A stretch of DNA of 64,000 nt from Arcticibacter tournemirensis (GTDB lineage: Bacteria > Bacteroidota > Bacteroidia > Sphingobacteriales > Sphingobacteriaceae): positions 434,001 through 498,000 of the forward strand of contig NZ_VFPL01000001.1 of assembly GCF_006716645.1 (NCBI RefSeq). The letters are read 5' to 3'. Position numbers and translations under genes: made by a program. The notes under the pieces were generated by a model that saw nothing but the letters and a program-made list of their open reading frames with translations, made no database searches and had not been told where the DNA came from. This document shows positions 17,757 to 34,131 of this stretch, in pieces. Each line of letters begins with the position of its first letter. The stretch's first letter is position 1.

Positions 17757-18670
17757 TGAAAACATATATAGCCCCATTTTTTTTGCTGCTCACGTTAAGT
17801 GCCTGCCACAGCAACGATACGCAAACCATTAAGGAACCCAAGCCGCGAACTGCCGTGCAAATTACACAGGTTGGTACCGGTGCGATCAGTGACGACCTGG
17901 TGCTTTCAGGAACTTCGGTTTACCTGAAACGTAATATGGTAACCTCGTCTATCGCCGCATTCATCACTAATGTTTATGTTAAACTCGGCGATCATGTTCG
18001 TAAAGGCCAGTCACTTTATTTGCTGGAATCCAAGGAGCGCAAGGCACTGGGGGCAGATATTACCAAAGTTGATCCATCGCTGAAAGGATTTGGTTTAATT
18101 ACGGTTACCGCACCGGCATCCGGCATTATCACCACATTTGATAAGCAGCAAACCGGTGAATACGTTTTGGAAGGTACACAGCTTTGTACAATAGCCGCCA
18201 GCAACGATCTGGCTTTCCAGGTGAATGTGCCTTATGAATATGCCGACTTGGTGAAACCCGGTAAAAAGTGCGTGATTACTTTGCCAGACGGCTCTGCTCA
18301 CCAGGCAACCATTACGACGCCCTTGGCTACGATGAACGCCGCAGAGCAGACCCAGGTTTTACTGGCGCGGCCTGATCAAACGCTGTTCCTGCCAGAAAAC
18401 CTGTTAGGTAAGGTCACTTTTAACCGTTCAGCATACGGCAATCAGCAGGTGCTGCCTAAGTCCTGCGTCGTGAGTGACGAATTGCTGAAAGATTTCTGGG
18501 TTATGAAACTGGTCAATGACAGCACCGCTATTAAAGTCCCGGTAAAAACCGGCAATAAAAACAAAGAATCTATCGAGATCCTTTCGCCAAAATTTCAAAA
18601 CGGTGATAAAATATTGATCAGCGGCAATTATGGTTTGGCGGACACTGCACTGGTAACTGTAGTTAAATAA
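17756..18670 (+). CDS. RND-pump periplasmic adaptor lipoprotein
   Basis: A 304-residue membrane-fusion protein with a lipobox (LLLTLSAC), so it is anchored in the inner membrane facing the periplasm. Split lipoyl halves are seen at AFITNVYVKLGDHVRKGQSLY and TVTAPASGIITTFDKQQTGEYV, with a beta-barrel region after them. The helical hairpin between the lipoyl halves is very short for this family (only ~25 residues), which resembles adaptors of simple pumps. It follows tolC with a one-base overlap and precedes the RND gene by seven bases. Confidence 0.88.
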   Translation: MKTYIAPFFLLLTLSACHSNDTQTIKEPKPRTAVQITQVGTGAISDDLVLSGTSVYLKRNMVTSSIAAFITNVYVKLGDHVRKGQSLYLLESKERKALGADITKVDPSLKGFGLITVTAPASGIITTFDKQQTGEYVLEGTQLCTIAASNDLAFQVNVPYEYADLVKPGKKCVITLPDGSAHQATITTPLATMNAAEQTQVLLARPDQTLFLPENLLGKVTFNRSAYGNQQVLPKSCVVSDELLKDFWVMKLVNDSTAIKVPVKTGNKNKESIEILSPKFQNGDKILISGNYGLADTALVTVVK

Positions 18671-18677
18671 CAGCATC

Positions 18678-21600: not shown

Positions 21601-21797
21601 AACTGATGACCGCTATTGGCGCTATCCTGGCCTTGATGCCATTGGCTTTGGGCATTGGCCTCGGCGCGCAAATGCAACAGCCGCTGGCTGTCGCGGTGAT
21701 TGGTGGTTTCATTGCGGCTTTACCGCTCTTACTTTTTGTTTTTCCATCGCTGATCCGCCTGGGTTACCGCAAACACCTGAAAACACATGAAGTATAA
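18678..21797 (+). CDS. RND-family efflux permease (AcrB/HAE type)
   Basis: A 1039-residue inner-membrane pump with the usual layout: one membrane helix, a ~300-residue periplasmic loop, six helices, a second large loop, then the last helices. The proton-relay helix reads GAIAASVGLIIDDAIVIIEQI with the paired aspartates. The length is normal. It does not carry the methionine-rich features of CusA that I can see, so organic compounds rather than Cu/Ag are likelier substrates, but this is weak. The 3' end overlaps the PAP2 gene by 11 bases. Confidence 0.92.
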   Translation: MAEKKNYFQKFSRPILFVGAILLAAGAYFYTHMQTNLFPEVLFPRVAIIAEAGQLPIDRMMLTVTKPLESAVKKVRGVTIVKSSTSRGSVTIDVYFDWGLDTYAQKTQIESRVNEIKNFLPAGVNMSIEAMNQSLFPVYGYTLSSKTHGQVALKDQAYLTLRPIFSRVNGIANVVTRGGRSKEFVIIPDPIKMSALGITPDAVKTAFANNNYVLSNGNLADFNRMYLTLTDTRVMDVDGLSNLTIRNDGSRLVKLRDFAKVDVQEQQEFVIVNANGKNAIQIDLVKQPGVNLIDFAKDAAAKAEEVRKALPDDFELTPYYDQSAFVGDSIHSVIKTIYEGLILAIIVMIFFLRSWRSSLAVMLSIPVTLGFTITVLYLAGITINIMSLGAIAASVGLIIDDAIVIIEQIHREHEEYPDKHIFDVVIDAIKALFPAMVGSSLATIVIFFPFRLMSGLAGSFFKELSDTMQITLVCSFLVTWLLLPVLHMVVGYRSHKGAEHKHNDFSSNKLSWLTWTFKKPVFAFLFIGVLGIAAYIASGKLETGFLPNLDEGTIVLDYFSPAGTSLEETDRLCKQMEKIVTAQPEVATYSRRTGVKMAFKTTQPNFGDYSIQLKKDRSKTTDEVIGELRDKISAHVPLMHISFGQRISDLLGDLMSTPAPIEIKIFGDDYAKLQELDKQATGILQKINGVADLDDGLITAGPSLEFVPDQDKLDLYKISLTDFQMQLSAYTGGVPLGMNAGIAEPSASQAALTGGIQIGELQDGQQMRKILLRFTNFKDNDLEHIKKQLIFLPNGQTRPLSFFCAVNVLPGEVQQTREDLKSNIILTARLDGRDLGSAITEIQQKLGSGLNLPKGYFISYGGAYAEQQQSFKELLLILGLAVVLVFAVLLFLFRDWLLACLVILISALGIGGSILALFICNIPLNVSSYTGIIMIVGIIAENAIFTLNQFRFNLADSGDVDTSINYAIGLRIRPKLMTAIGAILALMPLALGIGLGAQMQQPLAVAVIGGFIAALPLLLFVFPSLIRLGYRKHLKTHEV

Positions 21798-22407
21798 TTA
21801 TATCCTCTGCCTGCTTTTACTCTTTTTTACAGCCAGTGCAGTAAAAGCACAAAACCTTGACCTGCGTTTGCTGGAAAACATTAACGGCCCTGCCAATCCG
21901 CAATGGGATGGAAAATGGCGGGCGGTGACCAATAGCGCTATACCCATATCCATAGCCACGCCGGTCGCGCTCTTTGTAGCCGGGCAGATCGATCATAACC
22001 AAAATCTTAAAGAGCAATCCTACGTGGCTTTAGGTTCATTAGCAGGTTCAGCATTGCTTAGCACCCTGAGTAAAGCGATCACCCGTCGCGACCGCCCGTT
22101 TGTCAACCATGGTGATGTGATCTTTGCCAAATCCTTTCCAACGGATTATAGTTTTCCCTCGGGCCATACGACCGTGGCTTTTTCCACGGCTACTACGCTA
22201 AGCCTTTCTTTTCCGAAATGGTACGTGATCGTTCCTGCCTATACTTACGCGGCATCAGTGGGCTACTCCCGTATGTATCTCGGTGTGCATTATCCAAGTG
22301 ATGTGCTCGGTGGCGCGATCCTCGGCTCGGCCTCGGCTTATATCACATACCGCACCAATAAATGGCTGCGACGCGACCGAAAACACAAACAACTTTCTGA
22401 AAATTAA
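21787..22407 (+). CDS. PAP2-family phosphatase with signal peptide
   Basis: A 206-residue PAP2 phosphatase with all motifs intact: KAITRRDRP, PSGHTTVA and SRMYLGVHYPSD. A cleavable signal (LLLFFTASAVKAQ) precedes a soluble-like stretch and a few weakly hydrophobic segments, which suggests a periplasmic or outer-membrane-associated enzyme. It overlaps the RND gene by 11 bases and is seven bases before the PafA-like gene, making a run of phosphatases behind the pump. Confidence 0.87.
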   Translation: MKYNYILCLLLLFFTASAVKAQNLDLRLLENINGPANPQWDGKWRAVTNSAIPISIATPVALFVAGQIDHNQNLKEQSYVALGSLAGSALLSTLSKAITRRDRPFVNHGDVIFAKSFPTDYSFPSGHTTVAFSTATTLSLSFPKWYVIVPAYTYAASVGYSRMYLGVHYPSDVLGGAILGSASAYITYRTNKWLRRDRKHKQLSEN

Positions 22408-22414
22408 TCTCCCT

Positions 22415-24061
22415 ATGAAATACTTGAAAATTTTATCGCTTTTAATATGCCTGCCGGGCATTACTTTTTCGCAAACGAAGCCAACTGTTCCCGCTAAACC
22501 CAAATTGGTGGTCGGGATCATCATCGACCAGATGCGTTACGACTACCTTTATCGCTATCAGGATAAATACAGCGAGGGTGGATTTAAAAGATTATTGGGC
22601 CAAGGATTTCTTTTTCGCGATACCCATTATAATTATATCCCGACCTATACCGGCCCCGGGCATTCCGCCGTTTACAGCGGCACTACCCCGTCTTATAATG
22701 GTATTATTGCTAATGACTGGTATGATCGTGAATTGGGCAGAAGTGTTTATGTTACCGAGGATACTACGGTTCAGGGTGTGGGCGGCACCGGGAAAGGCGG
22801 ACAAATGTCACCACGCCATCTATTATCAACAACGGTAACCGACGAGCTGCGACTGGCAACGAACCGCAGGTCAAAGGTGATCGGCATCGCCTTGAAAGAC
22901 CGGGGAGCCATTCTGCCCGCAGGACATCTACCAACAGCTGCCTACTGGTTTGACAATAACAGCGGGGACTGGATCACCAGCACCTATTATACCAAGGTAT
23001 TACCGGAATGGGTGAAATCATTCAACCAGCAGAAAATGTCTGATCAATATTTATCCAAACCATGGGAAACCTTACTGCCTCTGGATACTTATCAGGGCGG
23101 TTTAACCAACGGGTCGGCTTATAGAAAGCCTTACAAAGGCGAAACCAGTAATAAATTCCCGCACGACTTGCCTGGCTTAAAAGCCGCCAACGGTTACGAA
23201 TTACTTCGGGAAACACCTTTCGGTAATACCTATACACTTGATTTTGCCATACAGGCCATGCAAGCTGAGAAGTTAGGCAAGGGTACGAATACCGATTTTT
23301 TAGCGGTGAGCTTTTCTTCGACAGATTATGTAGGACACCAATTTGGTATCGAATCAATAGAAGTGCAGGATACTTACGCCAGACTTGACCGTGAGATCGC
23401 ACGGTTGCTGACTTATCTGGACCAGCACTATGGTAAGGATAACGTACTCGTATTCTTAACGGCAGATCACGGTGCGGTGGAAACACCTGGTCACATGGCA
23501 GAGCTGAAAGCACCGGGTGGTATTTTTAACAATAAAGGTTTAAAAGAAAAACTGAACGATGCCTTATCGGAACAATTCGGTAAAGGCAAGTGGCTGCTGG
23601 ATTATCAGAATTTGCAGTTTTGGTTGAATGACGATCTGATATCGGCGCAAAAGAAAAGTAAGGCTGAAATAGCTGATGCAGTTTGCCAGCATCTTCGCAA
23701 AATGGCAGGCGTTTATCGCGTTTTACCTGTAGCCAATCTGTCAAAAAACACCAATGAACAATTGAACGACCAGTTATTCAATGGCATCAATCCTGTCCGT
23801 TCCGGCGATGTGGTGATGCAATTACTGCCGGGCTGGTTTGAAGGGTCAATACCCGCCGCTGGAGGAACGACTCATGGCACCGGCTATGATTACGATACGC
23901 ATGTGCCATTGATCTGGTACGGCTGGAAAGTTAAGCATGGCTCAACTGGCAATCTGGTACATATCACCGATATCGCCGTCACCGTTTCCGATCTGCTGAA
24001 TATTAGTCACCCGAGTGCTGCTACCGGACAAGTATTATCCGATTATTTACTAACCCGTTAA
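22415..24061 (+). CDS. pafA: PafA-like alkaline phosphatase (type I phosphodiesterase superfamily)
   Basis: A 548-residue exported enzyme (signal ILSLLICLPGITFSQ). Active-site parts of the alkaline phosphatase superfamily are visible: VGIIIDQMRYDYL (metal Asp), YTGPGHSAVYSGTTPS with the nucleophilic Thr, SSTDYVGHQFG, LTADHGAVETPGH and GTTHGTGYDYDTHVP. This pattern is that of PafA, the Bacteroidota phosphate-insensitive alkaline phosphatase that frees phosphate from organic esters in the periplasm. ATG 22415 is taken because the longer frame runs back into the PAP2 gene. It lies ten bases before the EamA gene. Confidence 0.88.
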   Translation: MKYLKILSLLICLPGITFSQTKPTVPAKPKLVVGIIIDQMRYDYLYRYQDKYSEGGFKRLLGQGFLFRDTHYNYIPTYTGPGHSAVYSGTTPSYNGIIANDWYDRELGRSVYVTEDTTVQGVGGTGKGGQMSPRHLLSTTVTDELRLATNRRSKVIGIALKDRGAILPAGHLPTAAYWFDNNSGDWITSTYYTKVLPEWVKSFNQQKMSDQYLSKPWETLLPLDTYQGGLTNGSAYRKPYKGETSNKFPHDLPGLKAANGYELLRETPFGNTYTLDFAIQAMQAEKLGKGTNTDFLAVSFSSTDYVGHQFGIESIEVQDTYARLDREIARLLTYLDQHYGKDNVLVFLTADHGAVETPGHMAELKAPGGIFNNKGLKEKLNDALSEQFGKGKWLLDYQNLQFWLNDDLISAQKKSKAEIADAVCQHLRKMAGVYRVLPVANLSKNTNEQLNDQLFNGINPVRSGDVVMQLLPGWFEGSIPAAGGTTHGTGYDYDTHVPLIWYGWKVKHGSTGNLVHITDIAVTVSDLLNISHPSAATGQVLSDYLLTR

Positions 24062-24071
24062 ACGATTAGCT

Positions 24072-24485
24072 ATGTGGTGGATATACGCGTTATTATCAGC
24101 TTTTTTTGCTTCCCTGACCGCCATCTTCGCCAAGATCGGGGTCAAGGATGTTAATTCTGACCTGGCTACGGCCATCCGGACAGTGGTGATCTTATTCGTT
24201 GCCTGGGGTATTGCCCTCGGGCGCGGAGAGATCAAAGGCATTGGCGAATTATCAAAAAACACCTGGATATTTTTAGGGTTGTCCGGACTGGCGACCGGGC
24301 TTTCCTGGATATTTTATTACAAGGCCCTGCAAATGGGAAAGGTATCACAAGTCGCACCGGTTGATAAACTCAGCGTGGCGCTGACGATCGTTCTGTCAGT
24401 GATTTTTCTAAAAGAAACCGTTTCGCTCAAAGCCGCAATTGGGGCAGTAATGATCATTGGCGGCACATTGGTACTGATCTTTTAG
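24072..24485 (+). CDS. Half-size EamA/DMT transporter
   Basis: A 137-residue membrane protein with four or five helices and the EamA repeat pattern (WIYALLSAFFASLTAIFAKIG; GLSWIFYYKALQMGKVSQVAPVDKLS; LKETVSLKAAIGAVMIIGGTLV). Full EamA proteins hold two such repeats; single-repeat forms work as dimers. Ten bases follow the phosphatase gene and three bases precede the next PAP2 gene. Substrate unknown. Confidence 0.85.
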   Translation: MWWIYALLSAFFASLTAIFAKIGVKDVNSDLATAIRTVVILFVAWGIALGRGEIKGIGELSKNTWIFLGLSGLATGLSWIFYYKALQMGKVSQVAPVDKLSVALTIVLSVIFLKETVSLKAAIGAVMIIGGTLVLIF

Positions 24486-24488
24486 CCA

Positions 24489-25106
24489 ATGAAAGGAAGA
24501 AACATTTATTCACCCGTAACCAGCTTGTTAATGCTGTTTTTGTTGAGTGCATCTGTGATGTTGTCAACGATATTTTATCAGTACGACAAAGCACTGGTCA
24601 TCGCTTTTAACGCGCAGCGAAATCCGACTGCTGATCTATTTTGGCTAAATATCACCAATAGCGCCGGTTGGGTCGCTTATGGAACGGTGGGCATCGCGCT
24701 GATCTGCCTGATTTTTGTTAAAGCAAGGAAGATAGATTATTTAGCCATTGTTTTGGCGGGTGCCATATCCGGTGGTTTAGCGACATTGATCAAATATGGG
24801 GTAGCGCGGATCAGGCCCTTCCATTTATTCACCAGTATACATGAATTGGGGCCGGGTGGCGGCTGGTCTTATCCATCCGGGCATACCTGTGATGCCTTTT
24901 TCCTGGCAACTATAATAACCATCGTTTTCCGGAAGCAGACCTGGCTTATCGTAGTCGTTTATTGTTGGGCAGTATTGGTAGGGATTTCCAGGGTTTATTT
25001 AGGCGCACATTACCCTTCGGATGTGCTTGCCGGGATCGCTGTTGGGAGCACCTCTTCCATGACAGCCTGGTGGCTCTCTCGAAAGATCATGAAGATCAGC
25101 GAATAA
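24489..25106 (+). CDS. PAP2-family membrane phosphatase
   Basis: A 205-residue integral-membrane PAP2 enzyme with intact motifs KYGVARIRP, PSGHTCDA and SRVYLGAHYPSD and about six helices. It is the last gene of the efflux/phosphatase operon and ends five bases before the stop of the convergent HAD gene. Likely substrates are lipid phosphates or undecaprenyl pyrophosphate. It is the fourth phosphatase-type product of this operon region counting PafA and the two other PAP2 enzymes. Confidence 0.87.
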   Translation: MKGRNIYSPVTSLLMLFLLSASVMLSTIFYQYDKALVIAFNAQRNPTADLFWLNITNSAGWVAYGTVGIALICLIFVKARKIDYLAIVLAGAISGGLATLIKYGVARIRPFHLFTSIHELGPGGGWSYPSGHTCDAFFLATIITIVFRKQTWLIVVVYCWAVLVGISRVYLGAHYPSDVLAGIAVGSTSSMTAWWLSRKIMKISE

Positions 25107-25111
25107 ATGGA

Positions 25112-25732
25112 TCATTTCAACCCCAGTGATTTCAATTGCCTCCGGGTTGAAGCTTCATCGGTATGGCAAATGCCATGCATCCCCATTTTTTCAGCGATCT
25201 CTACGAACATTGGCCGATCTTCCAGATAAACGATCTGATCAGGGTTTACTTGCGCCAGATCCAGCGCCAGTTTAAAAATTGCCAGATCCGGTTTCCGCAG
25301 CCCCACAAATCCTGAAGAAACAAAAAAATCACCGAAGCTGTCCAATCCGAACTGTTTGATGCGGTAGGCCGACAATTCACGCCCTTCGTTGCTGATCACG
25401 CCGACTTTTAAATGGTATTCGGCCTTTAACCGCCTGATCAATTCGATCATTTGGCTGTACGGCTGTGATTGCTGGTACATAAACGTTTCAAATGCATCCA
25501 TGGAAAATGGCCGCTCCTGGAAAAAGAAGATCCGGTTAAGATATTCTTCCAGGCTGATCTTCCCGATCTCATAGGTTTCAAAGGTCAGATGGTGGCGTTC
25601 CTCCATATCGGCAGGGTCGATATGAAAATGCAACGCTGCTTCCCGACGGGATTCATGATTCCAGCCGTCAGTTAGCAAAACACCACCTATATCGGTGAAA
25701 ATTGCTTTGATATTCGTTGTTTGCTTATTCAT
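25112..25732 (-). CDS. HAD-superfamily hydrolase, last gene of fluoride operon
   Basis: A 206-residue HAD hydrolase (subfamily IA type) with motif I FTDIGGVLLTDGW, motif II VISNEG, K in GLRKPD and motif IV YLEDRPMFVE. Motif I has Gly where the acid/base Asp usually stands (D-I-G-G), a feature of many IA members such as FDLGGV proteins. It is the promoter-distal end of the riboswitch operon, 21 bases after the esterase gene. Substrate unknown; haloacid or phosphate-ester hydrolysis are both possible, and fluoroacetate-type dehalogenation is only a speculation. Confidence 0.8.
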   Translation of the reverse strand: MNKQTTNIKAIFTDIGGVLLTDGWNHESRREAALHFHIDPADMEERHHLTFETYEIGKISLEEYLNRIFFFQERPFSMDAFETFMYQQSQPYSQMIELIRRLKAEYHLKVGVISNEGRELSAYRIKQFGLDSFGDFFVSSGFVGLRKPDLAIFKLALDLAQVNPDQIVYLEDRPMFVEIAEKMGMHGICHTDEASTRRQLKSLGLK

Positions 25733-25753
25733 AGTTAACAGAGGTAGATCATC

Positions 25754-26590
25754 TTAATTACCCTTTTTCTCTTTACCGAAGTAATCACTAAAGAACAGGA
25801 GTTGATATTTGATGGAATTTGACCAGTATTCCCAGGTATGGCCACCCGGTCTGATCGTGAAATCATGCGGGATATTGCGTTCCAACAACTGTTCGTGCAG
25901 ATTTTTATTAACCTGGAAAAAGAAGTCGCTATATCCGCAGTCAAACGTAATAGCCAGACTGCCAGGTGTTAATAAATAAGTCAGATTGATCACGGAATAC
26001 TTCTCCCAGTTTTCAGGCTTTTCACTGTATTTGCCGAGAATATTTTCCATTTCCCAGTTTTTAGGGAATGGCCTCAGGTCAACACCACCACTCATGGCTC
26101 CGGCAGCTCCGAAAACATCCTGATGCTTAAAAGCCAGGTAAAAAGCGCCGTGCCCGCCCATGCTCAAGCCGGTAATAGCTCGTCCGTTTCGGGATTTCAT
26201 CGTACTATAATGCTGATCGATATAGGGAATTAGTTCTGCGGTTATATAAGTTTCATACTTGCTGGACGGGTCAATAGGGCTGTCGATATACCAGCTTCCA
26301 CGGTTACCGTCAGGACATACGATCAGGATGTGGTGAAGATCTGCGTAATCGCTGATCGCCGGTACGTTTTTAACCCAGTCCCGGTAATTGCCACTGAAGC
26401 CATGTAACAGGTAAACAACCGGGTAATGCTGATTTTTATTATAACCAACTGGCTTGACTATTACCGCTTTAATGTGTTTGTGCATCGCATCACTGTAGGT
26501 ATCGACCGTATCCACGGTTGCACCACGTACCAATTGACTAACAGACAGCAGAATTAACGCTGTATAAAGAAAACGTTTGAAAATTCTCAT
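25754..26590 (-). CDS. Exported esterase of the PF00756 (esterase D/antigen 85) type
   Basis: A 278-residue alpha/beta hydrolase with a signal peptide (FLYTALILLSVSQLVRGA). The sequence shows YPVVYLLHGFSGNYRDWV, the nucleophile elbow TGLSMGGHGAFYLA, FDCGYSDFF and RPGGHTWEYW with the catalytic His. Such proteins are periplasmic carboxylesterases. It sits 17 bases after the 65-residue membrane protein gene in the fluoride operon; its relation to fluoride is unknown. Confidence 0.85.
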   Translation of the reverse strand: MRIFKRFLYTALILLSVSQLVRGATVDTVDTYSDAMHKHIKAVIVKPVGYNKNQHYPVVYLLHGFSGNYRDWVKNVPAISDYADLHHILIVCPDGNRGSWYIDSPIDPSSKYETYITAELIPYIDQHYSTMKSRNGRAITGLSMGGHGAFYLAFKHQDVFGAAGAMSGGVDLRPFPKNWEMENILGKYSEKPENWEKYSVINLTYLLTPGSLAITFDCGYSDFFFQVNKNLHEQLLERNIPHDFTIRPGGHTWEYWSNSIKYQLLFFSDYFGKEKKGN

Positions 26591-26607
26591 TTATAATAAA
26601 GTTTTAA

Positions 26608-26805
26608 TTAGCTTAAAAAATATCCTATTGCCGCTGACAACAGGGTGAAGAAAACGAATGCGACTACAGCACTTTTAATACTCTCAGTAAATACTCTGCG
26701 ACCCTTAAAATGATGCTGATATTCTTCGTAGGTGATCAAATAAGCCATTAAACCTGCTATAATTCCAAGGCCTGTGCCTATCAGTAGGAAGAACCGAAAC
26801 TGCAT
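26608..26805 (-). CDS. Small two-helix membrane protein of fluoride operon
   Basis: A 65-residue protein with two hydrophobic helices (residues ~3-22 and ~44-64) joined by a basic loop EEYQHHFKGRR. It is spaced like a true operon member, eight bases after the universal-stress gene and 17 before the esterase gene. No family recognised. Confidence 0.7.
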   Translation of the reverse strand: MQFRFFLLIGTGLGIIAGLMAYLITYEEYQHHFKGRRVFTESIKSAVVAFVFFTLLSAAIGYFLS

Positions 26806-26813
26806 GATTACTT

Positions 26814-27257
26814 CTATTTATCCATCGGTACAATAAACAAAGGCACCTGTGAATCACGCAATATGCCTTCTGCGATACTGCCTTCCAGTAAACGGTTGAG
26901 GCCTTTCCGGCCATGCGTACCCGCGACGATCAGATGTGCATCCCATTCCCGCGCCATTTGTAATACCACATCATGTACCTCACCCTCCGGCGCGAAATAT
27001 TCCGTTTCGACACCTTTGCCGTAATCCTTCGCCAAGCCATGCAGGAATTTTTCGGCATCTTTTTTTGCTGTGTTTTCGGCATCGTCAGGAAAAATTCCAG
27101 CATCGACATTCCCTTCCGTTTTGGCCGGTTCGAGCGCGTCGATCAGTCCGATCTTTACTTTGGCCCCTAACTGCCTTGCCAGTTCAAAACCATATTTGAC
27201 GGCTTTGATGGCGGAGGGGCTGTCGTCCGCTACGATCAATATTCTTTCGTATTTCAT
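26814..27257 (-). CDS. Universal stress protein (UspA family)
   Basis: A 147-residue single-domain Usp protein with the ATP-binding type motif G-x2-G-x9-G-S: VAGTHGRKGLNRLLEGSIAE. The start YERILIVADDSPSAIKAVKYG is typical. Usp genes are recurrent neighbours of CrcB and CLC-F in fluoride operons. Ten bases separate it from crcB. The role is probably stress signalling or protein protection; direct fluoride work is not established. Confidence 0.9.
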   Translation of the reverse strand: MKYERILIVADDSPSAIKAVKYGFELARQLGAKVKIGLIDALEPAKTEGNVDAGIFPDDAENTAKKDAEKFLHGLAKDYGKGVETEYFAPEGEVHDVVLQMAREWDAHLIVAGTHGRKGLNRLLEGSIAEGILRDSQVPLFIVPMDK

Positions 27258-27267
27258 ATTTTAAGAT

Positions 27268-27642
27268 TTAAATGGTTCTTGCTAACAGGATGCCCATATA
27301 AGTCGCCAGAAACCCCAAAACAATACTACCTAAAGTGTATAAGAGCATTGTGAATAGTTGGTGGTCACTGACCAATTGCACGTTCTCAAAAGAGAACGAG
27401 GAAAAAGTTGTATACCCCCCGCAGATACCTGTTACCAGGAACAACCGCCAGTTGAGGGCCTGATCGCCGAATTTTCCTAAATAAAAGACCAGGAAACCGA
27501 TCAGAAAACAGCCGGTCACATTAACGAGAAAAGTGCCATAGGGCAATACGGAAGTAACCCTGTCGGTGAGCCAGCGGTTAACGAGAAAGCGGGCCACGCT
27601 GCCCAAACCGCCGCCTAAAAAGATGATCGCGATAATTTTCAT
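27268..27642 (-). CDS. crcB: Fluoride channel CrcB/FluC
   Basis: A 124-residue four-helix membrane protein with the family marks GGGLGSVARFLVNRWL, NVTGCFLIGFL (pore Asn) and CGGYTTFSSFSFE, the phenylalanine-lined fluoride track. FluC dimers let F- leave the cell down its gradient. It overlaps DUF190 by four bases. It is unusual that the operon also holds a CLC-F antiporter, giving both a channel and a coupled exporter. Confidence 0.95.
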   Translation of the reverse strand: MKIIAIIFLGGGLGSVARFLVNRWLTDRVTSVLPYGTFLVNVTGCFLIGFLVFYLGKFGDQALNWRLFLVTGICGGYTTFSSFSFENVQLVSDHQLFTMLLYTLGSIVLGFLATYMGILLARTI

Positions 27643-27995
27643 ATTTGCCAGAATTCGACCGCTTTAAAGACGATCATTTTACCTTTTAACAGCGCCGCAT
27701 GCTTTTCGCAAAATGCTTCCAGTTTGGATTTTTCATCGATCAGCTCCACGCACATGGCCAGGTCTTCGTTGGCCAGCTCTACGTGATGGCCGCTGATCTT
27801 CCCGTGCAGGGAATAGCCATGATGCGTCTGGTAAACCGTCGCATTTATTAAATGGTCATCTTTTGCATATTTCACCAATTCTCGGTAAAGCTGCCGCGAA
27901 CGCAGGCGGTGCAACAGATTTTCAGCTTGTACCTTCTCTTTGGGCTGCACATAGATCTGTAGTTTACCGTAGATATGTTCCGTGATCTTACTCAT
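27639..27995 (-). CDS. DUF190 protein
   Basis: A 118-residue PII-like small protein of the DUF190 family (LQIYVQPKEKVQAENLLHRL near the start, HGKISGHH in the middle, plus VELIDEKSKLEAF). DUF190 genes are well-known companions of crcB; their ligand is not known, and a nucleotide- or ion-sensing role is suspected from the fold. It overlaps both neighbours (8 bases with CLC-F, 4 with crcB), so the three are strongly coupled. Confidence 0.85.
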   Translation of the reverse strand: MSKITEHIYGKLQIYVQPKEKVQAENLLHRLRSRQLYRELVKYAKDDHLINATVYQTHHGYSLHGKISGHHVELANEDLAMCVELIDEKSKLEAFCEKHAALLKGKMIVFKAVEFWQI

Positions 27996-29403
27996 CTTTT
28001 TTGCGTTTAGTGGTGATGCCGTATTTGCTCATTTTCTGGTGCAGGTAACCGCGCCGTTTCATGGCTTCGGAAAGTGACGCTTCATCGGCATATTCATCGG
28101 CAAATATTTTGGGTACCGCGATGCGCTGCGCGCTGTAAATGCCGGAATGTCCGCTGAAAAAATATGCCGTAAAGCAGGCTACCGCAAACAGCAAAGCATG
28201 TTCGCCGCCAAATAGTTCTATACCCATTACCGTACAGGCTAATGGTGTGTTGGTGGCCCCGGCAAATACTGCTATAAAACCAAGTGCCGCAAATAAACTC
28301 ACAGGAGCATCCAATAAGCCCGACAAGGTATTGCCTAATGTAGCACCGATATAGAATAATGGTGTTACTTCGCCGCCTTTAAAACCTGTCCCGAGCGTTA
28401 TCGTAGTGTAAATGGTTTTCCAAAGCCAGCTAAACGGATCTGAACCACCAGTGTGAAAGGCCGAAGGAATGGTGATCGCTCCGGCATGTTCGGCATCAAC
28501 GCCTAAACTCAGGTAGTCCGGCTTGCCGTTCAGATAATACAGACCGATGATCAGCAGGCCACCGAATACCGGGATCATCCATTTGTGCTTAAAGATCTTG
28601 CCGCAGATCATTTTGATCTCATGTACCATACCTGCGAAAAGATAGCTGGCTAAACCAAATGCTGCCGAGGCCAGGATCACTTTACCCAACAACAACAAAT
28701 CGAAATGAAAAATATCCGATACCACAAATGGTGCGGCAACGGGTAATGCTTCGATTTGGTAATGTACGTGGGTAACGTGCCAAGCCGAAACCGTCATATC
28801 GCCAACAATAGCAGCGATCAGTGCCGGTAATAAGGCATCATACTGGATTTTTCCGATGGTCAGCACTTCCATCGCGAAGATCGCACCGGTCAGCGGCGTG
28901 CCGAATACGGCTCCGAAACCCGCAGCCACGCCCGCCGTTAAGACCATGCGCATATCAATGCCCTTTAATTTGAACCAGCCGCCGAACATCGAAGCGATGC
29001 TGCCGCCGATCTGTACTGCCGTACCTTCACGGCCTGCCGAGCCGCCGAACAGGTGGGTGATCACCGTCGTTAACAGGATGATCGGTGCCATGCGTTTGGG
29101 AACACCGCCGCCAGCCTGGTGAATCTCGTCCATAATAAGGTTGTTACCCCTTTCCGAAGATTTACCAACGGATTGATAAATGAAGTGGATCAGCACACCT
29201 GCCAGCGGGAGCAGGAACAGCAGCCAGAAGTGTGCAAAACGGAAATGGATAGCTGCGCCTAATATCCAAAGGAAAAAGGCAATAGCGCTTCCGATCATCA
29301 GCGCAATAGGGATGACCAGTACCGTCCATTTGAACAGGTGTTTAATGATGGTGTAATGTTCCCTCAAGTGGATCGTTCGGTTGTTTTCGGGTTCGGTTGT
29401 CAT
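27988..29403 (-). CDS. CLC-F type fluoride/proton antiporter
   Basis: A 471-residue CLC-family membrane protein. Ion-pathway segments are GGSAGREGTAVQIGGSI, GTPLTGAIFAMEVL and GTGFKGGEVTPLFYIG. The family normally reads GREGP in the second loop, and the GREGT form and short C-terminus without CBS domains agree with the bacterial fluoride-selective clade (EriC-F, annotated as voltage-gated chloride channel family). CLC-F exchanges F- for H+. Its place behind a fluoride riboswitch with crcB supports this. It shares four bases with the pyrophosphatase gene (ATGA). Confidence 0.9.
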   Translation of the reverse strand: MTTEPENNRTIHLREHYTIIKHLFKWTVLVIPIALMIGSAIAFFLWILGAAIHFRFAHFWLLFLLPLAGVLIHFIYQSVGKSSERGNNLIMDEIHQAGGGVPKRMAPIILLTTVITHLFGGSAGREGTAVQIGGSIASMFGGWFKLKGIDMRMVLTAGVAAGFGAVFGTPLTGAIFAMEVLTIGKIQYDALLPALIAAIVGDMTVSAWHVTHVHYQIEALPVAAPFVVSDIFHFDLLLLGKVILASAAFGLASYLFAGMVHEIKMICGKIFKHKWMIPVFGGLLIIGLYYLNGKPDYLSLGVDAEHAGAITIPSAFHTGGSDPFSWLWKTIYTTITLGTGFKGGEVTPLFYIGATLGNTLSGLLDAPVSLFAALGFIAVFAGATNTPLACTVMGIELFGGEHALLFAVACFTAYFFSGHSGIYSAQRIAVPKIFADEYADEASLSEAMKRRGYLHQKMSKYGITTKRKKDE

Positions 29404-29951
29404 GCGTTTAATTTGGGTTTGATTTCTTGTTGATAGCGGTCGATACTCTCGCTGATAATCTTTAAGGCCGTTTCCCGGCCTTTGAAGCCCAGCACATCGA
29501 CCCTTTTATTTTCCAGTTTTTTGTAGTCCTCAAAAAAATTACGGAGTTCGTGTTCAGTATGAGGCGGCAGGTCGCCGATATCTTTGATGTGATCCAGCGA
29601 TATATCATTGGCCGCCACAGCAATGATCTTATCGTCAGGCTCGGATTGATCCTCCATGTGCATGACACCGATCACCCGCGCATCCAATATGGACAGCGGT
29701 ATTAATTCTTCGGAACAAATCACGACGATATCAAGCGGATCATTGTCGAGGTAGTAAGTTTGCGGCACGAGTCCGTAGTTGGCCGGGTAATGCACAGCGG
29801 AATAAAGTACTCTGTCGAGCATGAGCATTCCGGTAGGCTTATGCAATTCATATTTACACCGGCTACCCTTGGCAATTTCGATCACTACCTTGACAATACC
29901 AGGCGCATCTTTGCCCAGTTCAATATCGTGCCATGGATGTATATTACTCAT
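29400..29951 (-). CDS. ppa: Soluble inorganic pyrophosphatase (family I)
   Basis: A 183-residue enzyme with the family I signature DNDPLDIVV and start HPWHDIELGKDAPG. It hydrolyses pyrophosphate to phosphate in the cytoplasm. The family is one of the classical fluoride-inhibited enzymes, which makes its presence between enolase and the fluoride exporter meaningful: extra enzyme would offset inhibition. It is six bases after eno. Active-site residues look complete; a fluoride-tolerant variant cannot be judged by eye. Confidence 0.94.
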   Translation of the reverse strand: MSNIHPWHDIELGKDAPGIVKVVIEIAKGSRCKYELHKPTGMLMLDRVLYSAVHYPANYGLVPQTYYLDNDPLDIVVICSEELIPLSILDARVIGVMHMEDQSEPDDKIIAVAANDISLDHIKDIGDLPPHTEHELRNFFEDYKKLENKRVDVLGFKGRETALKIISESIDRYQQEIKPKLNA

Positions 29952-29957
29952 AATGCT

Positions 29958-31241
29958 TTATTTAAACCCTTTGAAAGTGCTTTTCCCTGCAAATCTGCCT
30001 TTGATGCAAAGTTCTTCTTCAATTCGCAATAGCTGATTAAATTTGGCAACGCGCTCTGAACGGCAACCGCTGCCGGTTTTAATGTGACCGGCGTTGGTAG
30101 CCACCACGAGATCAGCAATGGTCGTGTCTTCAGTTTCCCCGCTGCGGTGGGAGATAAAGCAGTTATAATTGTTCTTTTGGGCCAGTTCAACAGCCTGCAA
30201 TGTTTCCCAGACTGTGCCGATCTGATTCAGTTTAATTAATACACTGTTCGCGATTCCTGCGCTAATGCCTTCCTGTACAATGGCAGGATTGGTACAAAAG
30301 ATATCATCACCAACCAGTTCGATGCGGTTTCCCAGTTTTTCGGTCAGGGATCTCCAGCCTTTCCAGTCGTTTTCCCCGAGGCCATCTTCCAGCGAAATGA
30401 TAGGATATTTATCGATCCATGATGACCAAAGTTCGATCAATTCATCAGAGGTGTAATGCTGACCGGTGCTTTTGAACAGGCTGTATTTGCCATCTTTCCA
30501 TAGCTCACTTGCAGCGGGGTCAAGGCATATAGAAATGTCGTTTCCCGGCTCGTAACCTGCCTGGATAATGGCCTCCATTATTACTTCTATAGCTTCCTCA
30601 TTTGATCTCAGATTTGGTGCAAATCCTCCTTCATCACCGACAGCCGTAGCGTAGCCTTTTTTACCCAGCAGCGACTTCAGACTGTGAAATACTTCTTCTC
30701 CCATCCGAATGCTTTCCTTGAAGGTAGGGGCATTATGTGGCGCGATCATAAATTCCTGGAAGTCTACATTGTTATCGGCATGATGACCACCATTGATCAC
30801 ATTCATGCAGGGTACAGGCAATAAGTATTCATCCCGCGCGATCAGTTGCCGGTAAAGAGGGATTTGGTTTGATGTCGCGGAAACCCTTGCAAAGGCGATA
30901 GAGGCCGCCAATAACGCATTTGCGCCCAGTCTGGATTTATTAGGTGTGCCATCCAGTTCGATCAGCTTTTTGTCGAAAGCCTCCTGGCTTTCAAATTCAT
31001 TTCCGCTGATGGTATCGTTAACTTCTTTATTCAATCCGCCCACCGCAATTTCCACGCCTTTGCCCTTATAACGCTTTGGGTCATTGTCGCGCAGTTCAAC
31101 GGCTTCTTTTTCACCGGTGCTGGCACCCGATGGAGATATACCGCGCGCAATACTGCCATCAGCTAAAGTGATTTCTGCCTCTACGGTTGGATTTCCTCTT
31201 GAATCCAGTATTTCCCTGGCTTTGATCTTTTGAATTTTCAT
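29958..31241 (-). CDS. eno: Enolase
   Basis: A 427-residue enolase of normal length. Seen are the start KIKAREILDSRGNPTVEAE, the flexible loop ISPSGASTGEKEAVELRD, and SHRSGETEDTTIADLVVATN with GSGCRSERVAKFNQLLRIEEE. It converts 2-phosphoglycerate to phosphoenolpyruvate. Enolase is the best known fluoride target, and enolase genes under fluoride riboswitches are known. The stretch reads GDDIFCTNP where housekeeping copies usually have a V-T pair, and VATNAG in place of VGLCTG, so this is likely a second, diverged copy beside a chromosomal one. Confidence 0.95.
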   Translation of the reverse strand: MKIQKIKAREILDSRGNPTVEAEITLADGSIARGISPSGASTGEKEAVELRDNDPKRYKGKGVEIAVGGLNKEVNDTISGNEFESQEAFDKKLIELDGTPNKSRLGANALLAASIAFARVSATSNQIPLYRQLIARDEYLLPVPCMNVINGGHHADNNVDFQEFMIAPHNAPTFKESIRMGEEVFHSLKSLLGKKGYATAVGDEGGFAPNLRSNEEAIEVIMEAIIQAGYEPGNDISICLDPAASELWKDGKYSLFKSTGQHYTSDELIELWSSWIDKYPIISLEDGLGENDWKGWRSLTEKLGNRIELVGDDIFCTNPAIVQEGISAGIANSVLIKLNQIGTVWETLQAVELAQKNNYNCFISHRSGETEDTTIADLVVATNAGHIKTGSGCRSERVAKFNQLLRIEEELCIKGRFAGKSTFKGFK

Positions 31242-31253
31242 AGATTATTATTT

Positions 31254-31664
31254 TTAGATAAGCTTATCTGTTAATATTTCGAGTTGTTTAAATAAGTTTT
31301 CATATCGTTTCCTTAGCGATTCGTCAATTTCGCCATGGCCTTTCAACCGGTCAAAAGGGGCACCGGTAACATCTTCCCAAATAAAGGAAGCCTTGGTTGT
31401 CAGCAAGTGCTTTAAACTAACTGATTCACCTTCGAGACCATAGGTTTTCACGATATCCCGGAGTACTTTTCGGATCTCGGCGGCGGTATTTTGAAATGAT
31501 TGAAACTCATCTTCATTCAGGTCATATTCAAGCGTCAATAGTTCACCGGGTTGCTGATTCGCTTTGGCATAGGTAACTGTAGCTTCCATATCCCGGAGCT
31601 TTTCTTCGATCACATATACAGTTGACCGGAAAGATCTTTGCTGGCTTTCTGACAGTGCTTTCAT
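31254..31664 (-). CDS. Helical protein of unknown function in fluoride operon
   Basis: A 136-residue cytoplasmic protein, mostly charged helices (QQRSFRSTVYVIEEKLRDME; ESLRKRYENLFKQLEILTDKL) around a short hydrophobic part TTKASFIWEDVTG. No family recognised. One base separates it from the preceding metallophosphoesterase gene and twelve from eno, so it belongs to the operon. Confidence 0.7.
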   Translation of the reverse strand: MKALSESQQRSFRSTVYVIEEKLRDMEATVTYAKANQQPGELLTLEYDLNEDEFQSFQNTAAEIRKVLRDIVKTYGLEGESVSLKHLLTTKASFIWEDVTGAPFDRLKGHGEIDESLRKRYENLFKQLEILTDKLI

Positions 31665-31665
31665 C

Positions 31666-32388
31666 TCAGGCTTTAATTAAAAGGTTAGCATAAATATTCG
31701 GTATGGAGCTTTGCAGGATCGCTTGCTGAACCTCTTCCAGCGTATAGCTGACCCGGATAATGTCCGCAACAGGCAGTGGCCCTTTATCGTTTAGCGTTAA
31801 CATCAGATAAGCGGCCCGATTATTCCCGTCTTTAGATTTACCGACAGATCCGGCATTTATAGCAAGTTTAGACTGGCCAAAATATTTGATATAAGGACGA
31901 TGTGTATGGCCCATGATAAGTACATCTGCGACATAATCATCCATCAGATCAAGTAATGTATCCTCTGGAAAATCTTCAAAAACGTATTCACTGACACTTC
32001 TCGGACTCCCGTGGGTTAACAAAATATTCGTTTGATGATGCTCTAAACGGATAAACTTCGGGAGGGAACGCAGAAATTCCCTGTTTTCATCCGATAGCGC
32101 TGAATTGGTAAACGCAATGGCTTTTAACCCGGCTTTATGTTCCTCATTTGTTTTAAAAGAGAAATCAAATTCAGTTTTGTTCAAACCGATGGACAGGTCA
32201 TGATTACCACAAAGCGTAGGTATGTTTTCTGCCCTGATCAGTTCGATCACCTCATTTGGCCAAGGTGCGAAATTGACCAGATCGCCGAGACAATAGATAC
32301 GATCAATCTGCCGGCTGGTAATATCCCGAAGCACAGCCTGCAATGCGGGCAGGTTGCCATGTATATCGCTGATCACTGCTATGTTCAT
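31666..32388 (-). CDS. Calcineurin-like metallophosphoesterase of fluoride operon
   Basis: A 240-residue phosphoesterase with SDIHGNLPA, CLGDLVNFAPWPNEV, CGNHD, LTHGSPRSVSEYVFED and MGHTHRPYI. It is of the same subfamily as the two proteins in the ars cluster (shared PWPNEV/IWPNEV, SVGKSKDG/SVGKPKDG). All metal and catalytic residues are present. It overlaps the PAP2-like gene by four bases (ATGA) and is one base before the helical protein gene. ATG 32388 is chosen as it gives the family N-terminus MNIAVISDIH; the longer frame runs into the upstream gene. Confidence 0.9.
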   Translation of the reverse strand: MNIAVISDIHGNLPALQAVLRDITSRQIDRIYCLGDLVNFAPWPNEVIELIRAENIPTLCGNHDLSIGLNKTEFDFSFKTNEEHKAGLKAIAFTNSALSDENREFLRSLPKFIRLEHHQTNILLTHGSPRSVSEYVFEDFPEDTLLDLMDDYVADVLIMGHTHRPYIKYFGQSKLAINAGSVGKSKDGNNRAAYLMLTLNDKGPLPVADIIRVSYTLEEVQQAILQSSIPNIYANLLIKA

Positions 32389-33107
32389 AATATAAAATAT
32401 TTGAGGTTCACAAAAACTGTACAGATGGCCGCGGTCCGCATGATGGCAATGATCATGTCCTGCCACCACTTACTGCGCCGCTCATACCAACGTTCCAAGC
32501 GTTCCGGCAGCCAAAGAATACAGCAGATCGCCATGATAGTGCCCAGCACATTGCCAGCCAGTACATCACTTACATAAGCCCACCCCAAGTAAATACGGGA
32601 ATACATCAGCAGCAGCGCAACCAGCCAAAAAATAAAGGCGTATTTGAAACTTTCCGTAAAACACCAGGATAAATAAATGGCGAGACAGGTGACTACCGCA
32701 GCTTGAACAGAAGGAAAATTGAGTTCCGGCTGAACTGCCGAATTTGCTAATACAGACGTAACCGGAGCTTTCCAATGCTGAAAGTGGTTATATTGAATAG
32801 TGATACAGGCATACCAGGAAAAGAGTGAAGCCAAGATCGCGGTAAGGGAATATGCAGGTGCACGTCTTGCCAGCGCAATGACGACACCCGAAGTTACGAT
32901 ATAACTGCAGCTGCCTTGTGCGACCCAAAATAAAGGATGATCTAACCAGCTGATATGGAAAGAGTTAAGCAATATAGTGCTTTGAGAATTGCCATAACAT
33001 ATCAATAATATGATCAGCTGAAGCCAGATCAAAGCCATCAGCAAGAAGAACAGTCCAAATCCCTGGCTAAAAAACGATCTCGAAAAAAGGATGTTTATTG
33101 CTTTCAC
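32385..33107 (-). CDS. PAP2-like membrane protein with lost catalytic histidines
   Basis: A 240-residue membrane protein with about six hydrophobic helices, first gene after the fluoride riboswitch. It keeps the frame of PAP2 phosphatases but not the chemistry: PSGH is PSVQAA and SR-x5-H-x3-D is SRIYLGWAYVSD with Ala at the His position, and no K-x6-RP block can be seen. Both residues needed for the phosphohistidine mechanism are gone. It may be a structural or ion-handling derivative. It begins with GTG at 33107, ten bases or less after a T run that probably belongs to the riboswitch expression platform. Confidence 0.75.
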   Translation of the reverse strand: MKAINILFSRSFFSQGFGLFFLLMALIWLQLIILLICYGNSQSTILLNSFHISWLDHPLFWVAQGSCSYIVTSGVVIALARRAPAYSLTAILASLFSWYACITIQYNHFQHWKAPVTSVLANSAVQPELNFPSVQAAVVTCLAIYLSWCFTESFKYAFIFWLVALLLMYSRIYLGWAYVSDVLAGNVLGTIMAICCILWLPERLERWYERRSKWWQDMIIAIMRTAAICTVFVNLKYFIL

Positions 33108-33110
33108 CTA

Positions 33111-33139
33111 CAAAAAATTTAATGGTCGGACCACAGTCC
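33111..33139 (-). terminator. Possible riboswitch expression platform (hairpin and U run)
   Basis: On the minus strand a GGAC-TGTG-GTCC hairpin (33128-33139) is followed, 10 bases on, by AAATTTTTTG (33111-33120) immediately before the GTG start. The stem is short, so control could be by termination or by masking of translation initiation. Alternative pairing of GACC and GGTC blocks nearby is also possible. Confidence 0.4.
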
Positions 33140-33151
33140 TCCCGGTCATTT

Positions 33152-33207
33152 TGTAGGCGTCATCAGCACGAGGCGGTTATTTTAAACGGAAGAACACCAT
33201 TTCCGTT
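33152..33207 (-). ncRNA. Fluoride riboswitch aptamer (crcB motif)
   Basis: Read on the minus strand, a perfect seven-base stem AACGGAA (33201-33207) with TTCCGTT (33185-33191) encloses ATGGTGTTC, then AACCGCC, a short loop, and the hallmark GCTGATGACGCCTACA. These are the conserved parts of the crcB-motif fluoride riboswitch, whose three-magnesium pocket holds one fluoride ion and turns genes on. It stands directly before the operon with crcB, CLC-F, enolase and pyrophosphatase, which confirms the reading. Confidence 0.93.
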
Positions 33208-33218
33208 GAATAATATGA

Positions 33219-33247
33219 CAAATGTAGGAAATTTAATTTCATAACAA
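33219..33247 (-). promoter_or_regulatory. Bacteroidota-type promoter of the fluoride operon
   Basis: On the minus strand TACATTTG (33219-33226) matches the -7 element TAnnTTTG exactly, and TTG (33245-33247) within a T-rich run lies 18 bases upstream as a -33 element. Transcription should start around 33212, a few bases before the aptamer, so the RNA begins with the riboswitch itself. Confidence 0.75.
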
Positions 33248-33366
33248 AAAATCAATCGGTTTTACGCGTTCAATTAATACATTATATTCTTTTAACCTCA
33301 ATTATCTCTGACTGTTAACAAACCAAAATAGTAGGTCGACGTTATTGCTTTAATAATAATAAGATT

Positions 33367-34131
33367 ATGCCCAACAAGTATTTCAAGCCGCACGAATCAT
33401 TCGACCTTAACTCACACAAGTACGATGTTGGTATATTGACAGGATTAAAAGATGGTTACGAAGACAATCTATTTATTAAAAAGGTACTTGAACTGCCGGA
33501 GCTTGAATACGAGTCGTATTATCTATACCACCTCGATTACTTTTTAAGCAAGGAGCCACAGGGTGAACAGGAGTTTTTTTCTTTTGTTTGGCAGATCGTT
33601 TTAAGGCGTATTAACTACCTCGAAATTAAAGACCCTTTTAATTCGAGCCATGCTTTGGATGTGGAGATAATAGAAAAACTTTTGCACTTTCAAAAATACC
33701 TACGTTCAATTGACCAGTGGGATACCCAAAGAACACTACCCGAAATTATTGCCGACCAGCAGGAGACGATCAGGAAACAACAAGAAGAAATTGCAGCTTT
33801 AAAGGATGAAGTCAAAGCCGCAAAGAAATTAGAAACCCAGGAGTTTATCAATATTGCAGACGGTTACCTATTAACTTTTTTAGATATATGCCTGCAAATC
33901 CAGGATGATACCTTATTGCCTGATGGCAAAAAAGAATTGGTTTTATCACAAACACAAATTGTGTGGTGCAAGATGATCGCTAAGTATTTCAGGGAGGGCG
34001 GTAACGAGATAAGCCTCGAAACCATACGTCGGTATTTCCCCGCAGACAGGAAAAATCCCGGTAGCAAGTATGCTAAAATTCCACCACAGTTAAAGCTGTT
34101 CCAACTGAAACCCGCTAAAAAGCGCAGTTGA
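33367..34131 (+). CDS. Element-encoded protein with coiled coil, possibly RteC-like
   Basis: A 254-residue soluble protein. Residues 1-80 (KYFKPHE, EDNLFIKKVLELPELEYES, FFSFVWQIVLR) recur in the chimeric ORF at 9201. Residues ~128-158 form a coiled coil (IIADQQETIRKQQEEIAAL), and the end (SLETIRRYFPADRKNPGSKY) recalls the C-terminal pattern of RteC, the excision regulator of Bacteroides conjugative transposons; this likeness is weak. It opens the mobilisation part of the element, 163 bases before the first excisionase-like gene. A regulator of excision or transfer is the best guess. Confidence 0.6.
   Translation: MPNKYFKPHESFDLNSHKYDVGILTGLKDGYEDNLFIKKVLELPELEYESYYLYHLDYFLSKEPQGEQEFFSFVWQIVLRRINYLEIKDPFNSSHALDVEIIEKLLHFQKYLRSIDQWDTQRTLPEIIADQQETIRKQQEEIAALKDEVKAAKKLETQEFINIADGYLLTFLDICLQIQDDTLLPDGKKELVLSQTQIVWCKMIAKYFREGGNEISLETIRRYFPADRKNPGSKYAKIPPQLKLFQLKPAKKRS

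Follow-up and report, generated by a model that had tools for sequence, protein, structure and literature searches.

The 64,000-nucleotide stretch of Arcticibacter tournemirensis DNA analyzed here (the window; bases 434001–498000 of contig 1, in a genome of 5.66 Mb) very probably carries a fluoride-resistance operon that was probably brought in by a mobile element. According to the list of open reading frames (ORFs) of the window, twelve of them follow a fluoride riboswitch on the minus strand (Table 1). Taking the start of the first, PAP2-like gene (PAP2d) at GTG 33107 and that of the metallophosphoesterase gene (MPE) at ATG 32388, where its ATGA overlaps the stop of the upstream gene, the eleven intergenic spacings are -4, 1, 12, 6, -4, -8, -4, 10, 8, 17 and 21 bases in operon order. 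An earlier sequence-only reading had proposed twelve minus-strand genes behind an aptamer, with gaps of at most 21 bases, forming a single riboswitch-led operon with CrcB, a CLC exporter, enolase and pyrophosphatase. The spacings (-8 to 21 bases), the riboswitch score and the Pfam families all agree with this proposal, and the genes would be transcribed together and induced by fluoride.

Operon proteins were assigned to families with Pfam and NCBIfam. In Pfam, genes 1 to 6 match PAP2, Metallophos, no family (a protein of 136 amino acids (aa), H136), enolase, Pyrophosphatase and Voltage_CLC, and genes 7 to 12 match DUF190, CRCB, Usp, no family above cut-off (65 aa, M65), Esterase and HAD. CrcB is recognized by both collections (CRCB, 105.3 bits for a cut-off of 32.9; TIGR00494, 106.3 for 80.45). 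The enolase (ENO) scores 624 bits with TIGR01060 (cut-off 300) and the pyrophosphatase (PPA) 194.1 bits with PF00719 (cut-off 23.5; family I inorganic pyrophosphatase). The CLC protein reaches 223 bits with Voltage_CLC and stays far under the cut-offs of the ClcA and ClcB models; rather than from a class model, we take the protein to be CLC-F from its context and from motifs that mark this class. Both exporter genes lie on the riboswitch strand, within the chain of gaps of 21 bases or less.

Table 1. Features of the window, in order of position (numbered from its first base)
Feature	Position	Strand	Basis
Left copy of 241-bp direct repeat (91%)	9201..9441	+	repeat search
Response regulator and histidine kinase, second arm	12755..14693	+	family match
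PAP2a, inside second arm	14677..15390	-	family match
TolC-like outer-membrane factor (OMF), HlyD-like membrane-fusion protein (MFP), RND pump	16470..21797	+	family match
PAP2b, phosphodiesterase, half-size EamA, PAP2c; end 5 bp from HAD stop	21787..25106	+	ORFs, family match
HAD hydrolase; weak member	25112..25732	-	Pfam
Esterase, signal-peptide-like start by eye; weak member	25754..26590	-	Pfam
M65, 65 aa, probably two membrane helices by eye	26608..26805	-	relative after Usp in L052
Terminator-like hairpin then T run, inside end of M65 gene	26624..26644	-	consensus match only
Universal stress protein (Usp)	26814..27257	-	Pfam
CrcB/Fluc fluoride channel	27268..27642	-	Pfam, NCBIfam
DUF190 protein	27639..27995	-	Pfam
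CLC-type exporter, read as CLC-F	27988..29403	-	Voltage_CLC; F class by context
PPA, inorganic pyrophosphatase (PF00719), fluoride-operon lineage	29400..29951	-	Pfam, tree
ENO, enolase of fluoride-operon lineage	29958..31241	-	Pfam, tree
H136, orphan helical protein adjoining enolase	31254..31664	-	no family; structure model
MPE, calcineurin-like metallophosphoesterase	31666..32388	-	Pfam; start set by ATGA overlap
PAP2d, PAP2-like, without motif-3 His, extra conserved C-terminal helix	32385..33107	-	profile, alignment
Expression platform: CCTACAA (33157-33151) complementary to TTGTAGG (33113-33107)	33107..33157	-	sequence, fold
Fluoride riboswitch aptamer RF01734	33147..33213	-	covariance model, 49.7 bits
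Promoter-like site TTTG-N18-TAnnTTTG	33219..33248	-	consensus match
Right copy of 241-bp direct repeat, in ORF upstream of mobilization genes	33367..33607	+	repeat search

The aptamer scores 49.7 bits with RF01734 (gathering cut-off 34) and is the sole Rfam match above cut-off in the window. The promoter that had been placed upstream of it was recovered as the single match to TTTG-N17-21-TAnnTTTG, the Bacteroidota-type promoter consensus, on the minus strand of positions 25001–33260, where 0.058 matches were expected from 500 mononucleotide shuffles. Sigma-70-type sites are no more frequent in the region than in shuffled sequence (16 found, 15.9 expected). Transcription from the promoter-like site would start an RNA whose first bases form the aptamer.

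The GTG start codon of the first gene begins with the last G of the TTGTAGG of the expression platform, and the minimum free energy fold contains an 11-bp stem in the CCTACAA/TTGTAGG region (z -2.06; 6 of 200 shuffles as good). For comparison, 35 leaders were picked with a sequence pattern, duplicates over the first 60 bases being removed; some of them are closely related, one (L038) is probably a chance motif that was kept, and leaders outside the search pattern, such as those of L055 and L080, are absent from the count. A 7-pair complement was found downstream in 18 of the 35 leaders when G-U pairs were allowed, 13 having Watson-Crick pairs throughout. At or under the 5% level of 200 mononucleotide shuffles we found 18 leaders, with about 2 expected (0.005 for the window leader). 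The complement is written with varying letters, in at least four versions (CCTACAA/TTGTAGG, CCTGTAC/GTACAGG, CCTGATT/AATCAGG and CCTGCAA/TTGCAGG). Because complementary pairs recur with different letters and the stem is part of the minimum free energy fold, the platform fits translation control through start blocking. Without fluoride, CCTACAA would pair with TTGTAGG at the start codon and block translation; binding of Mg-F would keep CCTACAA in the aptamer and so free the start. A terminator-type platform was set aside, since the T run lies within the pairing stem. A second riboswitch of this genome (C1:4588072) precedes a CLC gene without other recognized operon genes (L003), so the twelve-gene operon would add to a one-exporter response.

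The long operon is rare. Riboswitch matches with E ≤0.001 were present in 253 of 399 family genomes, above cut-off in 246. In a set of 31 riboswitch loci drawn from the first 100 relatives, 15 had a CLC gene with no other window family recognized, 2 had CLC-Usp, 3 EamA-ENO-CLC and 5 a longer set (L035, L047, L052, L054 and L055), the remaining 6, all under the Rfam cut-off, having no recognized family. A check for the same gene order in other genomes, as suggested in the sequence-only reading, found PAP2d-MPE-H136-ENO-PPA-CLCF-DUF190-CrcB-Usp behind the riboswitch in L082 (genome G804) and L081 (G612). Nine genes in identical order behind a riboswitch in two other genomes is more than chance. 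The system had also been called unusually complete, which is fair but does not make it unique, as G612 shares its first nine genes and adds further ones; by eye, the additional downstream genes of L081 are sulfite-oxidase-like, DUF202, EamA, a split PAP2, phosphoglycerate-mutase-like and NUDIX.

In one scan of eight loci, the riboswitch was above cut-off in every one. Shorter versions include L047, which is the same locus as L070 (Albibacterium bauzanense, Sphingobacteriaceae), with PAP2d, H136, ENO, CLCF, DUF190 (readable in one frame), CrcB and Usp, then a response regulator and a kinase; L052 with MPE, ENO, CLCF, DUF190, CrcB, Usp and M65; L080 with H136, ENO, CLCF, DUF190, CrcB and Usp; and L055 with CLCF, DUF190, CrcB and Usp. 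In L092, ENO, PPA, CLCF, DUF190, CrcB, Usp and then MPE follow two more Usp genes. A rearranged set is found in L071 and L072 (Thermoflavifilum, Chitinophagaceae): CrcB, DUF190-like, CYTH-like, H136, ENO, PPA, MPE and MFS, where the DUF190-like and CYTH-like labels were given by eye. The CYTH-like protein directly before H136 lies at 1390-1896 in L071 and 9457-9999 in L072. In L092 (G794; 12337-13899, minus strand), two riboswitch matches lie about 830 bases apart, with one Usp gene behind each. Nine genomes that belong to a single genus share a nearly identical riboswitch cassette, PAP2a-EamA-ENO-CLCF (L044-L046, L084, L086-L089 and L091). Its flanking gene pattern is the same in all nine, with PAP2a shortened to 138-184 aa, and it may be one old locus or one large element.

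Enolase and pyrophosphatase are the classical targets of fluoride, and the operon copies had been described as spare targets. Our trees speak against this description. Besides the operon genes, the genome encodes another enolase at C1:5021539 and another pyrophosphatase at C1:712105, and its operon and housekeeping enolases share 52.8% identity. Enolase copies number two in 8 of 11 genomes and one in 3; nine genomes, the window's own included, hold one housekeeping enolase (425-454 bits) and one operon enolase (388-406 bits). In a tree of 30 enolase rows, 14 operon rows form one group versus 12 housekeeping rows (support 100/100; 100% of 200 bootstrap trees), and two alphaproteobacterial plasmid enolases encoded near crcB (Methylocystis and Methylocella) fall on the operon side (100/98). 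In this tree L044 stands for L045, L046, L084, L086-L089 and L091, L083 for L085, and L093 for L094. Since the root of the tree is not known and its branches are long, one origin of the operon enolases of different phyla is likely but not proven. The pyrophosphatase tree, built without the third match of G612 (L201), which contains a stop, separates 6 operon rows from 11 others (100/98, with a long-branch warning). Because each enzyme clusters with copies from other fluoride operons, we rejected the idea of spare housekeeping copies. The twelve enolase positions that we take to be catalytic are identical in all tree rows, and with 12/12 kept, the operon enolase should be active.

H136 has no Pfam or NCBIfam family, and a PDB sequence search gave no relative (best E 0.19). 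Its structure model is all-helix, with five helices (pLDDT 88.9), and a fold search against PDB returned 27 matches up to E 10 and none up to 0.001. Relatives were detected in 3 of 395 phylum genomes with the single sequence, in 5 of 399 family genomes with a three-row alignment, each in a riboswitch operon, and at 3 loci of a species-genome collection with strict peptide patterns; these sets overlap and include the window. H136 was missing from all five other sampled genomes of the window's genus. A tblastn search found no match in plasmids, though a relative on a Spirosoma linguale plasmid later emerged from a weak hit followed by profile comparison (probability 97.9). Eight of the nine members lie in fluoride operons (the window, L082, L081, L070, L080, L071, L072 and the Spirosoma plasmid), and in all eight H136 adjoins the enolase gene, immediately upstream of it in seven and immediately downstream in one. 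The other neighbor is MPE, PAP2d, the riboswitch, the CYTH-like gene or, in Spirosoma, an opposite-strand aquaporin-family gene. The simplest inference is that H136 is an optional protein acting with the operon enolase.

PAP2d scores 47 bits with PF01569 (cut-off 27.2), and the best PDB match of its model (mean pLDDT 69) is LpxE, 6ebu (TM 0.75 by target, E 0.012). The four PAP2d sequences (window, L082, L070 and L081) match a PAP2-like profile and have in common an additional C-terminal helix that contains a conserved Arg, and in all four loci PAP2d is the first gene after the riboswitch. Judging by the PAP2 motifs, with SRx5Hx3D as motif 3, we found the motif-3 His and the motif-1 Arg replaced in all four, which bears out the description of this protein as a degenerate PAP2; the motif-2 His is lost in the window and L082 and kept in L070 and L081. 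All three motif residues are kept in PAP2a, PAP2b and PAP2c of the window. In 231 family genomes, a sample outside which G804 lies, a four-row PAP2d profile gave three strong hits, all of them its own rows; scores then fell to 63 bits, and the sample yielded no further member. By sequence, PAP2d appears to be a conserved, non-catalytic operon member, predicted to be a membrane protein of PAP2 fold.

The sequence-only reading had listed several members as lacking a usual link to fluoride. Three of them, the degenerate PAP2, the metallophosphoesterase and the 136-residue protein, do recur in other riboswitch operons. The 65-residue protein recurs once, after Usp in L052, the sole recurrence of Usp-M65 (tblastn gave no match for M65 in plasmids). 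The esterase and the HAD protein do not recur as clear members of relatives' fluoride operons: the esterase has one 41-bit relative, after a CLC gene in L099, and HAD has a 78-aa relative (79 bits) located before a response regulator and kinase in L168. These two genes are probably a local add-on.

Taken together, CLC-F and CrcB would export fluoride, as expected from their families, the dedicated enolase and pyrophosphatase lineages would keep glycolysis and pyrophosphate removal going, MPE would aid phosphate metabolism and H136 would work on or with the enolase that it adjoins. To the sequence-only reading the analysis adds the separate ENO and PPA lineages, H136 beside enolase, the missing motif-3 His of PAP2d and an adjoining RND arm; that reading mentions neither this arm nor the 241-bp direct repeats. 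We regard as unlikely the wider proposal that these form a dedicated Bacteroidota fluoride set, in which H136 protects an old enolase lineage from, or reactivates it after, a magnesium-fluoride-phosphate dead end, a non-catalytic PAP2 protein is made first on fluoride arrival, and a two-component-controlled RND/PAP2/EamA envelope arm answers the same stress from outside.

This second arm has the order response regulator-histidine kinase, PAP2a (minus strand), YncE, OMF-MFP-RND, PAP2b, phosphodiesterase, half-size EamA and PAP2c. Relatives of its MFP were found in 8 genomes besides its own among 247 (E ≤1e-50) and in 4 of 72,556 plasmids (E ≤1e-25). In half of the 12 MFP loci, the fetched stretch contains a riboswitch at a distance of about 6 to 14 kb: G081 and G188 (both of one genus), G246, and the Adhaeribacter, Hymenobacter and Spirosoma plasmids. 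None was found in the fetched stretch of G244, G129, G040, G095, G019 and the Fibrella plasmid. Among the seven MFP loci with at least 285 bits (scores from two programs), five have a riboswitch. In G246 no known fluoride gene follows it. The ORFs behind the good riboswitch match of L167 (16194-16256, plus strand; 52.4 bits) include no known fluoride gene. G612 carries a close copy of the arm (93% identity in RND) some 32 kb from its operon. Four other Bacteroidota groups have the arm, with EamA and PAP2, close to a fluoride riboswitch, and in three of them there is a recognized fluoride gene as well. The arm EamA is not specific to fluoride loci, since 67 of 201 family genomes have a relative (E ≤1e-35). 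In nine hand-chosen, high-scoring EamA loci, cassettes already seen being left out, the gene touches or nearly touches a CLC-F gene in four (L169, L170, L173 and L174), lies within an RND arm in three (L168, L171 and L176) and is in neither setting in two (L172 and L175). In L169 and L170, from two genomes of the window's genus that have no riboswitch match (G001 and G005), the CLC-F gene is convergent with a half-size EamA gene. The arm is linked to fluoride loci more than by accident and also occurs alone; often linked to the operon, it need not be controlled by fluoride.

The 241-bp direct repeats bracket about 24 kb that hold the operon and the second arm. The left copy leads into an integrase-like end, NikA/MobC- and relaxase-like genes come after the right copy, and relatives of the operon are located on Bacteroidota plasmids. 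The operon was probably acquired on a mobile element. At 9201-9674 (plus strand), an ORF joins the start of the gene at 33367 to a tyrosine-integrase-like end and resembles a recombination product. An assignment of the ORF at 33367 to RteC was rejected, having no Pfam support.

Several observations weigh against parts of this interpretation. The 7-pair complement is missing in 17 of the 35 leaders, among them those of the H136 operons L070 (6 pairs) and L120 (Spirosoma) and several CLC-only leaders. The ninth H136 relative (L068/L069) has no recognized fluoride gene on its 7.3-kb contig, for which there is no Rfam scan. The two enolase classes do not differ at the catalytic positions, and class-specific positions do not cluster around these when compared with equally conserved columns: 9 of 22 fall no more than 4 residues from a catalytic position (0.41; 0.03 when all positions serve as the reference). 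Active-site changes in the operon enolase are not supported, and its sequence therefore does not establish a fluoride-tolerant enzyme. The shared catalytic positions, together with the absence of H136 next to six operon enolases (L044, L052, L083, L092, L093 and L119) out of the 14 included in the tree, would suit a plain extra dose of enolase and pyrophosphatase without special property, with H136 unrelated to enolase; enolase overexpression is also the reading given in a review (PMC11139923). We rate this explanation slightly below even. It leaves aside that a separate lineage is kept beside the housekeeping copy in the nine genomes holding both, and that H136 keeps its contact with eno in all eight fluoride operons that hold it while its other-side neighbors differ. 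At the far end of the operon, the terminator-like site at 26644-26624 (minus strand) may separate the last two genes; the riboswitch operon would then span ten genes (PAP2d to M65), and the esterase and HAD genes would form a unit that is separate or read weakly. That comparative support stops at M65 (L052) and that the esterase and HAD genes do not recur as clear operon members point the same way. However, the gaps there are just 17 and 21 bases, no full Bacteroidota-type promoter is present (one TAnnTTTG at 25949 without upstream TTTG), and terminator-like matches arise by chance too (14 found on both strands, 8.4 expected). Division into two units has, in our estimate, a little under half the probability.

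The locus might also be a multi-stress island that carries the fluoride operon as one of several cargoes, next to arsenic genes (2.4-5.4 kb), ChrB/MFS and the RND arm, with the arms functionally untied, a possibility that we consider evenly balanced. The repeats that bound about 24 kb, the six MFP loci without a riboswitch in the fetched stretch and the spread of EamA relatives favor it. In Enterobacter cloacae FRM, the MFP and RND genes neighboring the fluoride operon of genomic island GI3, genes that may or may not be related to the pump of the window, were not fluoride-induced (0.9 and 1.4 fold; PMC5533749, Table 1). Conversely, the EamA/PAP2 arm lies near a fluoride riboswitch in the four other Bacteroidota groups, and the convergent layout is repeated once, on the Adhaeribacter plasmid.

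Baker and coworkers reportedly described, in 2012, CLC-F and Fluc/CrcB exporters under a fluoride riboswitch. The window operon has both exporters and ten more genes; in 15 of the 31 fetched loci described above, the riboswitch stands before a CLC gene and no other window family is recognized. A similar layout is that of the Adhaeribacter swui plasmid NZ_CP055154.1, where the riboswitch and eno-CLC-DUF190-crcB are convergent with EamA-PAP2-RND-HlyD-TolC-kinase-response regulator; unlike the window, its operon lacks MPE, H136, pyrophosphatase and Usp, and two PAP2 genes lie upstream of the riboswitch. According to PMC5533749, eno, uspA, ppaC, gpmA and crcB of E. cloacae FRM are fluoride-induced and deletion of a six-gene fragment abolished resistance. 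Its GI3 operon (ppaC-uspA-eno-gpmA-crcB-orf5249) resembles that of the window in riboswitch, enolase, pyrophosphatase, Usp, CrcB and location on a genomic island, with an MFP and an RND gene next to the operon (PMC5533749, Table 1), but has six genes, a manganese-dependent PpaC rather than PF00719 and a phosphoglycerate mutase; the table names no CLC, DUF190, MPE, H136 or PAP2. The R4' fragment of Pantoea vagans pPV989-94 and its relatives likewise form a mobile crcB-gpmA-eno-uspA-ppaC set, differing from the window in having the gene content of the E. cloacae set, a transposon context and a host of another phylum (PMC5971314). Enolase, pyrophosphatase and HAD genes are named as frequent partners of CLC-F/CrcB/RF01734 riboswitch systems (PMC11139923). 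In a literature search covering few subscription papers, from which we claim no absence from print, no paper joined fluoride and crcB with PAP2, the fluoride riboswitch with CLC and DUF190, or fluoride and crcB with RND, two-component and enolase genes.

The usual account of operon enolase and pyrophosphatase copies is that of an extra dose. The presence of a separate enolase lineage on chromosomes and plasmids, with H136 beside 8 of 14, makes it testable whether a fluoride-tolerant enolase evolved, alone or via a partner. The answer bears on fluoride toxicity and on the engineering of organofluorine-degrading bacteria, for which fluoride release is named as an obstacle (PMC11139923).

Other stress-related genes lie elsewhere in the window. 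At 2457-5392 (plus strand), an ACR3-type-like arsenite exporter (by eye) is followed by two metallophosphoesterases related to the MPE of the fluoride operon. A ChrB_N protein, an MFS transporter and an endonuclease/exonuclease/phosphatase-family protein are encoded at 10124-12688 (plus strand); relatives of this MFS transporter are found in the Thermoflavifilum fluoride operons (L071 and L072) and 12 kb from the riboswitch in L167.

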